Of a stretch of DNA of 6,025 nt, positions 4,207 to 6,025 are shown piece by piece. Made by a program: the position numbers and the translations under genes. Under the pieces are notes generated by a model that saw nothing but the letters and a program-made list of their open reading frames with translations, was not told the origin of the DNA and made no database searches. Source of the stretch: Actinomycetes bacterium (GTDB lineage Bacteria > Actinomycetota > Acidimicrobiia > Acidimicrobiales > RAAP-2); assembly GCA_021849765.1 (NCBI GenBank), contig JAJZSM010000101.1:1-6025 (forward strand), given 5' to 3'. The first letter of the stretch is position 1. Every line of letters begins with the position of its first letter.

Positions 4207-4974
4207 ATGGACCTGGGACTTGGTGACCGCGTCGTCCTGATCACGGGCGGCACCGACGGACTCGGGCTGGCGCTCGCGAAGAACCTGGTCGCCGAGGGCG
4301 CCCGGGTCGCCGTTTGCGGCCGTGACGCCGCCCGACTCGAACGCGCGCAGGAACTACTCGGCAGTGAGGCGCTCTGCGTCGAAGCCGACGTCACCAACGC
4401 GAGCGACCGCGAGGCGTTCGTCGCGGACTCGCGGAGCCGATTCGGCCGGATCGACGCGCTGGTGAACAACGCGGGACGCTCGGCGGCGACGCTCGTGGCG
4501 AATTCTGACGACGACGAGTGGCGCGCGGACTACGAGCTCAAGGTCGTGTCGGCGCTGCACCTCGCCCGGCTCGTGCTGGATGATCTCGCGGTGTCAGGTG
4601 GCGTCGTGCTCAACGTGCTCGCCATTTCGGCGCGCGCGCCGGGTGCTGGCTCGACGCCGACCGCCGCGTCGCGCGCCGCGGGCCTGGCCATGACCAAGGC
4701 GCTGGCCAACGAAGTCGGCCCGCGCGGCGTTCGCGCGCTCGCGATCCTGATCGGTCTTATCGAGTCGGGACAGTGGGAGCGCCGTGCGGCCCAGTCGGGC
4801 GTGTCGGTCACCTCGATCTATCAGGATCTCGCTCGAAACGCCCGTGTTCCGCTGGGCCGCGTGGGTCGGGCCGAGGAGTTCGCGAACCTCGCCACCTTCC
4901 TCGTGTCGCCGCGCGCGAGCTACGTGACCGGCGTCGGCGTGAGCCTCGACGGCGGCCTGTCACCCGTCATTTGA
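4207..4974 (+). CDS. Atypical short-chain dehydrogenase/reductase (SDR) lacking the catalytic Tyr/Lys
   Basis: A 255-residue protein of classical SDR length with an intact Rossmann front half: TGGTDGLG (13-20) for the dinucleotide, GRD (38-40) after the second strand, D61-V62 for the adenine, and NNAG (87-90). The tail is also typical: PLGRVGRAEEFANLATFLVS (215-234) and YVTGVGVSLDGGLSP (239-253). The active site is not canonical. Where YxxxK is expected the sequence reads T152-A-A-S-R156, and the usual NISS strand reads LNVLAISA (135-142). I recall an SDR subgroup in Actinobacteria with LSN-x-x-RAG-type sequences and an (I/L)GLI-x-SGQWERR segment (182-193 here) that also lacks Tyr, so this may be a family trait and not decay. 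Substrate and cofactor preference are unknown; it may bind NAD(P) without ordinary alcohol/ketone chemistry. The ATG at 4207 fits the TACAAT leaderless promoter. Confidence 0.85.
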   Translation: MDLGLGDRVVLITGGTDGLGLALAKNLVAEGARVAVCGRDAARLERAQELLGSEALCVEADVTNASDREAFVADSRSRFGRIDALVNNAGRSAATLVANSDDDEWRADYELKVVSALHLARLVLDDLAVSGGVVLNVLAISARAPGAGSTPTAASRAAGLAMTKALANEVGPRGVRALAILIGLIESGQWERRAAQSGVSVTSIYQDLARNARVPLGRVGRAEEFANLATFLVSPRASYVTGVGVSLDGGLSPVI

Positions 4975-5018
4975 CACGGCCGAACGATCGGCTCTGAAAG
5001 CGTGTGCCGTCATGGGTC

Positions 5019-5024
5019 TAGGGT
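5019..5024 (+). promoter_or_regulatory. Candidate -10 element (TAGGGT) before the leader ORF
   Basis: TAGGGT fits TANNNT and is followed by GTCCAG and then GTG (5031), the same 6-nt spacing seen at other starts in this window. A -35-like CTGAAA (4994-4999) lies 19 bp upstream, longer than ideal. The element stands 45 bp beyond the SDR stop, so it could drive the leader ORF and the CopD-like gene as a separate unit. Confidence 0.35.
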
Positions 5025-5030
5025 GTCCAG

Positions 5031-5111
5031 GTGCCCGTGACCAGCCGACGTGACTCGAGCCGCGTCCAAGGCGTCAACCGGGACAGCGTGGGAGTTGGGG
5101 TGCCGCGATGA
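5031..5111 (+). CDS. Possible 26-codon leader peptide overlapping the CopD-like gene
   Basis: GTG (5031) opens a 26-codon frame that ends in TGA (5109-5111). This stop overlaps the ATG (5108-5110) of the next gene as ATGA, a layout typical of translational coupling. The putative peptide begins MPVTSRRDSS and is hydrophilic, Arg- and Val-rich, with no motif, Cys cluster or run of one amino acid that would suggest attenuation. Support comes from the TAGGGT hexamer 6 nt before the GTG and from the exact overlap. Against it, an overlap of this kind can arise by chance, and the downstream ATG has a modest ribosome site of its own (GGGG 5097-5100, spacing 7). It may be a regulatory upstream ORF or simply 5' untranslated sequence. 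Confidence 0.33.
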   Translation: MPVTSRRDSSRVQGVNRDSVGVGVPR

Positions 5112-5557
5112 CCGTGCTCTGGTCGCTGGTGCTGTTCCTTCACGTCACGGCAGCGGCGTTCTGGGTCGGGGGTCAACTGATGTTGTCCTTCGTCGTCATG
5201 CCCGCTCTGCGACGCGACTCGCCACCCGAAACGATTCGTGCCATCGCCCAGTCGGCGGGACGCCGGTTCACCGCCGTGACCAATCACGTCCTGCTTCCGG
5301 CGTTGTTGATCACCGGACCGTTGCTCGCCTGGCACGACGGGGCTCGGTGGTCCAATCTCGTGACGACGGCCTTCGGGCACCTGTTGATCGTCAAGGTGGC
5401 CCTCGTGGTGGTGGTCTTTACGATGGCTTCGTTCCACGGTTTCGTCGCGCGCCGCACGTCGCGGCGCGGTGTGCGTATCTACGCGATCATTACCGTCATC
5501 GCTTCGGTCGGCGTGCTCGCGTTGGCGGCCTTTCTCGCGATGGCGCCCGGTCCCTAG
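5108..5557 (+). CDS. CopD-like four-helix integral membrane protein
   Basis: A 149-residue, very hydrophobic protein with about four membrane helices (roughly 4-31, 58-76, 87-109 and 122-145). TM1 reads LHVTAAAFWVGGQL (11-24), a His-x-x-x-Ala-x-x-x-Trp-x-Gly-Gly pattern typical of the small CopD/DUF-type family of predicted copper-resistance or electron-transfer membrane proteins. His12 (TM1), His60 (start of TM2) and His110 (end of TM3) are candidate metal or heme ligands. His76 and His91 lie in or near the loop after TM2. Between TM1 and TM2 is a charged stretch with Arg35, Arg36, Arg52 and Arg53. Membership of the family does not prove a copper role, because many such proteins are uncharacterised. 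The ATG at 5108 is the only good start before TM1. No copper chaperone or CopC gene is next to it. It ends 66 bp before the convergent small gene, with no clear terminator between them. Confidence 0.75.
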   Translation: MTVLWSLVLFLHVTAAAFWVGGQLMLSFVVMPALRRDSPPETIRAIAQSAGRRFTAVTNHVLLPALLITGPLLAWHDGARWSNLVTTAFGHLLIVKVALVVVVFTMASFHGFVARRTSRRGVRIYAIITVIASVGVLALAAFLAMAPGP

Positions 5558-5623
5558 CGCGCGATTCGTCACGTGCAACGACGCGAGCATCGATTTCGTC
5601 GACGCGCCACCTCAACGCGGGGC

Positions 5624-5773
5624 TTAGTTCTGTGAGGACGGGTGTTCGGACTTGGCGGGCTGGTACGTCGGGAAAAAGTCCGGGTCCTTCTCGTAGAGGA
5701 AGCCGTAGACGCTGTGAGCGGCGCGACGAATCACCGTTGACATCGTCCGATGGGTTTGAGTCTCGTGCTCCAT
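5624..5773 (-). CDS. Small 49-residue protein, unknown function
   Basis: ATG at 5771-5773 opens 49 codons ending in TAA (5624-5626). A clear Shine-Dalgarno (GGGAG) ends 7 nt before the ATG. Third codon positions are mostly G or C, as in the neighbours. The peptide is soluble-looking: a polar N-terminus (MEHETQTHRT), a basic, probably helical stretch (STVIRRAAHS, 12-21), an aromatic core VYGFLYEKDPDFFPTY (22-37) and a short polar tail. No signal peptide, membrane segment or Cys is present. I do not recognise the family. Divergent from the right-edge gene, it shares with it a control region holding a DosR-type palindrome. If that box works in this direction, the protein may be induced by low oxygen or nitric oxide; this is inference. 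Longer frames over the same DNA read as low-complexity Arg-rich sequence and were set aside. Confidence 0.66.
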   Translation of the reverse strand: MEHETQTHRTMSTVIRRAAHSVYGFLYEKDPDFFPTYQPAKSEHPSSQN

Positions 5774-5832
5774 CGATAGTCTCCCAATTCTCGATAGACG
5801 TCAATCACCAGTGACTCGCTACCGCGATTCAG

Positions 5833-5850
5833 CCCCAGCGTACGGTGGGG
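5833..5850. repeat. 18-bp near-perfect palindrome, candidate operator
   Basis: CCCCAGCGTACGGTGGGG is an inverted repeat in which 8 of 9 base pairs match; only 5838/5845 (G opposite G) fail. It has no loop, so it looks like a protein-binding site and not an RNA hairpin. It covers the candidate -10 of the small gene (TACGCT on the minus strand, 5837-5842). Its centre is 42 bp, about four helical turns, from the centre of the DosR-like box. Confidence 0.4.
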
Positions 5851-5865
5851 CCCTTGAGATGACAG
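5837..5865 (-). promoter_or_regulatory. Candidate promoter of the small 49-residue protein gene
   Basis: On the minus strand CTGTCA (5860-5865, 4 of 6 to TTGACA) and TACGCT (5837-5842, TANNNT) are separated by 17 bp. Transcription would begin near 5830, giving a leader of about 56 nt that includes the Shine-Dalgarno. The DosR-like box would then be centred near -54, a plausible activator position. Confidence 0.35.
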
Positions 5866-5873
5866 CTCGCCGC

Positions 5874-5893
5874 ACCGGGACTAAAGTCCCGAA
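5874..5893. promoter_or_regulatory. DosR/DevR-type binding site (near-perfect palindrome)
   Basis: GGGACTAAAGTCCC (5877-5890) is a perfect inverted repeat around AA and is followed by GAA. Against the mycobacterial DosR consensus TTSGGGACTWWAGTCCCSAA it matches 18 of 20 positions, failing only at the first two bases. DosR is the response regulator of the hypoxia and nitric oxide dormancy response. Here the box lies between the divergent small gene (minus) and the right-edge gene (plus), about 54 bp from the predicted minus-strand start and about 91 bp from the predicted plus-strand start. No DosR gene is in the window, so the binding protein is inferred. Confidence 0.68.
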
Positions 5894-5961
5894 ATCCGTT
5901 CGTTGGTGCGACGGCCCAATCGGTTATCGCGAGTAGCGGGTCGCCATCGGGTGCGGGCGCG

Positions 5962-5998
5962 TAAAATTGCCACTTGCACGAACTATGCGAAGAGAAGG
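5962..5998 (+). promoter_or_regulatory. -10 element and Shine-Dalgarno of the right-edge gene
   Basis: TAAAAT (5962-5967) matches TATAAT at 5 of 6 positions and stands out in this GC-rich sequence. The -35 region at 17 bp is poor (GGTCGC), suggesting dependence on an activator. GAGAAGG (5992-5998) is a strong Shine-Dalgarno 7 nt before GTG 6006. The predicted leader is about 32 nt, so this gene is not leaderless. Confidence 0.5.
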
Positions 5999-6005
5999 TG
6001 TCGGC

Positions 6006-6025
6006 GTGCTCACTCGATACATAAG
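6006..6025 (+). CDS. Start of an unidentified gene cut by the right edge
   Basis: GTG at 6006 opens a frame with six complete codons visible, reading MLTRYI, followed by a codon starting AG (Arg or Ser). The start is supported by a strong Shine-Dalgarno and a good -10. A competing GTG at 5998 hits a stop inside the window. Too little is present to name it. A start such as MLxRYI is common in binding-protein-dependent permeases, but six residues cannot settle this. It may share DosR-type control with the divergent small gene. Confidence 0.5.

Follow-up and report, generated by a model that had tools for sequence, protein, structure and literature searches.

The palindrome at positions 5874-5893 of the window (the whole stretch of 6,025 nucleotides analysed here) raises the question of whether a DosR/DevR-type switch of the mycobacterial kind operates in this genome and, if so, which gene it drives at this locus. 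This 20-bp box reads ACCGGGACTAAAGTCCCGAA and agrees with the DosR consensus TTSGGGACTWWAGTCCCSAA, as printed in PMC2275270, at 18 of 20 positions; both half-sites are present and the two mismatches both lie at the left end. Its core, the perfect palindrome GGGACT-AA-AGTCCC (5877-5890), reads GGGACTTTAGTCCC towards a 49-residue open reading frame, and these 14 bases occur only once in the window. The match reported in the preliminary description is thus confirmed by the sequence, and it was not equalled in any of 200 dinucleotide shuffles of the window, none of which held a match to TTSGGGACTWWAGTCCCSAA within three mismatches. The whole genome (2,060,627 bases in 148 contigs) was then searched with the reversed pattern as control. 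The exact core GGGACTNNAGTCCC has two occurrences in it and the reversed pattern none; the second exact box precedes an acetate transporter/acetyl-CoA synthetase pair (satP-acs), so that a further copy upstream of genes, as anticipated for a regulon, does exist. When up to two mismatches in the core were allowed, 75 sites were obtained against 61 for the control, and therefore the weak matches are mostly noise and only strong sites were used.

By our estimate, 2 Mb of sequence should hold about 0.1-0.2 12-base matches of this kind, so one stray copy would be possible; a chance palindrome without function is nevertheless very improbable, because there are two exact copies, neither of them within a called gene, the reversed-pattern controls were low, and conservation of the footprint in five genomes, described below, contradicts it. 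The palindrome could also act as an RNA hairpin or terminator, since CGGGAC-TAAA-GTCCCG is able to form a 6-bp hairpin, which 14 of 200 shuffles equalled in folding. This reading is barely credible: the z-score of the fold is weak (-1.65), no terminator-like site was found in 5560-6025, and the palindrome lies upstream of the predicted transcription start.

The likely target of the box is the 49-residue open reading frame on the reverse strand (5624-5773). Homologues were found in five of the 99 genomes of the genus, the window's own genome (G000) included, the others being G102, G105, G112 and G002, and this conservation in relatives supports the reading frame as a gene. The protein had three relatives in a set of 5.8 billion proteins, matched no Pfam family at E 0.01, and was predicted from four sequences as a single helix spanning residues 2-29 (mean pLDDT 73.9, pTM 0.45). 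All five genomes with the gene carry the box, 97-105 bp upstream of the ATG, with GGGACTTTAGTCCC as the core in G000 and G105 and GGGACTTTGGTCCC in G102, G112 and G002. Furthermore, the element CCGTACG[C/A]T follows the box at constant spacing in all five. The -10 hexamer of actinobacteria has the form TANNNT, and this element contains a plausible one, TACGCT (TACGAT in G102, G112 and G002), at 5837-5842 on the reverse strand, 34 bases from the box core (33 if counted to the G before the T). Transcription is thus predicted to start at about 5830, which would place the centre of the box at about -53.

When G000, G112 and G002 were aligned as three lineages, 18 of the 20 box columns were invariant, against 25% of the remaining 353-column alignment, and the top-scoring 20-column windows of the locus were those over the box. 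This amounts to a strong footprint, with the reservation that all five genomes are close relatives, the other four having DosR proteins 96-99% identical to that of G000. The palindrome is thus conserved at this locus, where the preliminary description had named a lack of conservation as a ground for refutation, and the 49-residue protein is a likely member of the regulon, as that description proposed. On the other side of the gene, and given here as context only, a 149-residue protein encoded on the forward strand (5108-5557; Pfam CopD just under the cut-off) is convergent with the 49-residue gene and syntenic with it in the four relatives examined.

The preliminary description had also counted the gene at the right edge as a member and had called the region a divergent promoter. 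Neither proposal was upheld: the right flank (5891-6025) contains no supported gene and is not conserved with G102 or G112, and no intact, conserved start of a rightward gene was found near the box. It is quite unlikely that the box serves a right-hand gene, instead of or besides the 49-residue gene, either by activating it or by covering a rightward promoter, although several observations agree with such a role. Palindromes work in both directions, and in G105 a FUSC-type permease gene begins to the right of the box. The sequence on this side aligns with that genome up to a point 346 bp from the start of the box, where the homology of the own contig stops, some 60 bp inside the FUSC-type gene. 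In addition, a rightward promoter-like match (5859-5887; 0.1 expected) overlaps the box, its second hexamer lying inside it, an arrangement that would suit repression or a right-hand role. However, the FUSC-type gene is 271 bp away in G105 and broken in the own genome, G102 and G112 keep the box and the 49-residue gene next to different right neighbours, the conserved spacing to a -10 was found on the left of the box, and the first hexamer of the rightward match reads CCATTG in G105 and is thus not kept. Because the right side is not shared with G102 and G112, the gene is broken and the hexamer is not kept in G105, a right-edge gene is unsupported as a member.

The break in the FUSC-type gene is caused by an insertion at the end of contig C3 (L001:1847-1967), which we take, from about 19 residues read by eye, to be the start of an IS21-type transposase; its tail matched no other stretch among the loci compared. 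Over the part compared (4501-6025), the window and contig C3 differ by single bases at 4515 (C/T) and 6024 (A/G).

The genome also encodes a DosR-type regulator and a DosS-like kinase, so that the absence of such a regulator, another ground for refutation in the preliminary description, does not apply. Among its five NarL/LuxR-type regulators, the one at C84:5423-6070 combines a receiver with a LuxR-type helix-turn-helix domain, and its best solved relative is DevR/DosR (3c3w; E 1.6e-60, the next at 8.2e-36). The base contacts of DosR are made by Lys179, Lys182 and Asn183 (PMC4082495). The aligned positions are K-K-N in the C84 protein alone; the other four regulators have R-E-G, A-K-S, R-E-T and R-E-S. 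This triplet is also present at 30 of the 30 best loci of the genus, and among the 80 loci L135-L214 it was seen in 76. Just upstream of the regulator (C84:4279-5430) a kinase is encoded in which Pfam finds GAF, HisKA_3 and HATPase domains; a pyridoxamine-oxidase-like protein is also encoded upstream. The kinase GAF region, the only one found by Pfam, matches GAF-A structures of DevS/DosS (best E 1.5e-38) and has His and Tyr where these have His149, the proximal haem ligand, and Tyr171, the distal residue (PMC4082495); the chain numbering is our own count and relies on both residues fitting one offset.

The titles of the nearest DosR loci agree with the acidimicrobial host that had been proposed: of 29 loci with at least 73% identity, 15 carry the name Acidimicrobiaceae or Acidimicrobiales in the title, 13 are given only as Actinomycetes, Actinomycetota or actinobacterium, and one as Acidobacteria. 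A link to universal stress proteins was not seen in the own genome, where the single Usp domain match lies on a different contig from either exact box. Scanning the contig stretch around the own dosR gave one chance-level match with three mismatches, and no box within two mismatches was found at any of the 29 dosR loci of the same group (L135-L163, up to 6 kb per side, some cut by contig ends), which argues that the own lineage has no autoregulation box.

Recurrence across the genus provided further evidence for regulatory use of the box. The core GGGACTNNAGTCCC occurred at 30 sites in 26 of the 99 genomes, against one site for the reversed control, and 19 of these sites (in 18 genomes) had a W-W centre, an excess with binomial probabilities of 7e-10 to 3e-7 (assumed backgrounds 0.14 to 0.20; relatedness not corrected). 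W-W sites lay outside called genes in 18 of 19 cases, compared to 5 of 11 for the non-W-W sites (Fisher 0.0045). Gene calling was crude, by a script using GC at codon positions; the W-W site at L109 was counted as inside a gene, although four sister genomes have this locus between genes. A longest-ORF listing placed the W-W sites of L095 and L112 within reading frames 70 and 89 residues long, and another frame ended over the L096 site; these overlaps were taken as spurious. A one-base variant, GGGACTWWGGTCCC, was found at 27 sites in 26 of the 99 genomes (control, one site).

Neighbours of the 19 W-W core sites and 27 variant sites were assigned by a signature script covering 1.5 kb per side, and recurring ones were found at 32 of the 46 sites: satP at 11, a divergent locus of the regulator labelled RR2 and iron-sulphur genes at six, the 49-residue gene at five, a desaturase at four, a hybrid kinase at three, a dosR-like gene at two and a 181-residue protein at one. 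By eye, two of the 14 sites left as 'other' also fit these groups, L252 (trpA end, with the contig stopping before satP) and L258 (181-residue protein). Further copies of the motif, whose absence would have counted against the preliminary reading, thus lie before the own satP-acs and recur among the 99 genomes. By Pfam, the own satP-acs pair encodes Gpr1_Fun34_YaaH and acetyl-CoA synthetase domains, and FA_desaturase was identified at L098 and L268 out of the four desaturase loci. The RR2 locus gave matches to Fer4, response-regulator and kinase domains, and a 785-residue protein at L112 combines kinase with receiver domains. The target in G028 was dropped as a SatP protein, having no Pfam match. 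In the satP promoters the half-sites are fixed and the centre varies (TA/AA/TT).

Some features of these loci lie outside the box itself. The satP promoters (L021:4837-4900; G102, G107, G109, G112) contain a second conserved palindrome, GTGAA-N4-TTCAC, downstream of the box, perhaps a Crp/Fnr-like site. At the RR2/iron-sulphur divergent promoter (L091, L102, L107, L109, L111), near-invariant TACGTA-containing blocks on both sides of the box suggest a further regulator. Lastly, a protein of 181-182 residues with no confident Pfam assignment is encoded near a box in L258 and L275 of the genus and in L232 of a distant family. The two genus copies share 42-45% identity with the 182-residue protein next to the G167 box, and the protein is a candidate core target.

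The RR2 locus also offers another reader for the box, namely a different regulator of the NarL type. One example is the C15-type protein, which has RR2 look-alikes standing beside the box in six sister genomes. RR2 genes lie 108 bp from the box in G004, G032, G033, G103 and G046, with the same locus in G111, and on inspection by eye the C15 regulator of the own genome looks like RR2. We nonetheless consider this unlikely: C15 and the two RR2 proteins examined have R-E-G where DosR has K-K-N, the five RR2 genomes with an exact box each also encode a K-K-N DosR, the 49-residue and satP boxes showed no RR2 signature within 1.5 kb, and RR2 is equally likely to be a target. The own DosR is thus retained as the probable reader. 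Weighing against it, the presence of box and regulator was only weakly tied across genomes. Neither the W-W core nor the variant was found in 64 of the 99 genomes; DosR is present in 34 of the 35 with a box versus 53 of the 64 without (p 0.03 from a hand tally, relatedness not corrected). In G001 (genome 91% complete) the satP box is present, but a DosR was not found at E<=1e-40.

The search was then widened to 298 genomes of the order. Here the W-W core occurred at 22 sites in 13 genomes (control, three sites) and was absent from 285, and 152 encoded DosR-like proteins (E<=1e-40), 10 of the 13 with a box versus 142 of the 285 without (p 0.05, relatedness not corrected). Boxes lie about 58 bp from dosR in G123, about 67 bp in G019 (variant box), 207 bp in G065 and 1.4 kb in G276; in G167 the box is 37 bp after the end of a dosR-Usp-kinase row, 2.7 kb from dosR. 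Four of about 38 exact W-W sites are thus within 3.5 kb of dosR (G065, G167, G276, G123), where about 0.12 would be expected by our estimate (Poisson 8e-6), and the DosR proteins of these four genomes all carry EKTVKNY. A set of 51 dosR loci from other bacteria, most of them named actinobacteria (L164-L214), gave 20 sites within two mismatches versus three controls. The low-GC relatives G276, G321 and G225 (family f61 of the order; L217-L225) have two to four exact boxes each, which by eye precede paired FAD oxidoreductases (one site in each genome) and lie near isocitrate dehydrogenase/MetF-like genes (G276, G321).

We conclude that the palindrome is a DosR-type box, probably bound by the genome's own DosR and probably driving the 49-residue gene. 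The proposed sequence of events is as follows. The haem GAF domain of the C84 kinase would detect low oxygen (or NO/CO), and the kinase would phosphorylate DosR; DosR dimers would then bind the palindrome, with Lys-Lys-Asn of the recognition helix reading GGGAC, and DosR at about -53 could recruit RNA polymerase to the -10 at 5842-5837, with activation, rather than repression, of the 49-residue gene. The own satP-acs genes would be under the same switch, and in sister species it may act on a desaturase gene, on iron-sulphur/redox genes, on kinase genes and, in some cases, on dosR. The response could be one of dormancy.

A wider reading, which we offer as a conjecture with somewhat less than even prospects, is that haem-sensing DosS-DosR has been rewired in this uncultured Acidimicrobiaceae genus from the stress proteins that it controls in mycobacteria to the capture of acetate (satP-acs), to desaturation and to iron-sulphur redox functions, that a lineage-specific helical protein of 49 residues has been recruited as a small low-oxygen effector, and that targets turn over between species and the box is kept. 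Since the box is conserved and a matching sensor and regulator are encoded, the DosR-type switch seems to extend past the hosts in which it is classically known. If this is true, a distant actinobacterial class has an oxygen/NO switch of the mycobacterial type, written in the same DNA word and read by the same residues, an environmental comparison becomes available for the origin and change of dormancy regulons, and an orphan protein gains a testable condition. Searches of a partial literature collection for DosR in Acidimicrobiia/Acidimicrobia or DevR in Acidimicrobiales returned no paper.

Within the order, a close parallel is G167 (L232, another family), where the regulator, a Usp protein (Pfam) and, by eye, a pyridoxamine-oxidase-like protein and a GAF kinase stand in a row. 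The own genome also has a DosR-type regulator, a GAF kinase and a pyridoxamine-oxidase-like protein in a row; unlike in G167, the order is pyridoxamine-oxidase-like protein, GAF kinase, regulator, and Usp and box are absent. With the DosR/DevR-DosS/DosT system, through which Mycobacterium tuberculosis reacts to low oxygen, and its Dev box, the system shares the box core and consensus, a NarL-type regulator with the Lys179-Lys182-Asn183 triplet and a kinase GAF domain with the equivalents of His149 and Tyr171. The DosS of M. tuberculosis has two GAF domains, whereas the kinase here has one; furthermore, the own lineage has no box at dosR, the targets are probably satP-acs and the 49-residue protein, and the host belongs to a different class. 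Mycobacterial proximal boxes are described in PMC3029386 as overlapping the -35, whereas the one strong box here would lie upstream of the inferred -35, with no overlap. DosR-type systems outside mycobacteria are already known from Streptomyces coelicolor, whose OsdR-OsdK likewise uses a palindromic site, said in PMC5069765 to conform to that of M. tuberculosis; the sites listed there include osdR itself and a Usp gene, and the core found here has the mycobacterial form, unlike the 16-base OsdR consensus given in that paper, AGGGCCGATCGGCCCT. By most of the features tested, the system described here belongs with DosS-DosR and would be expected to work like it.
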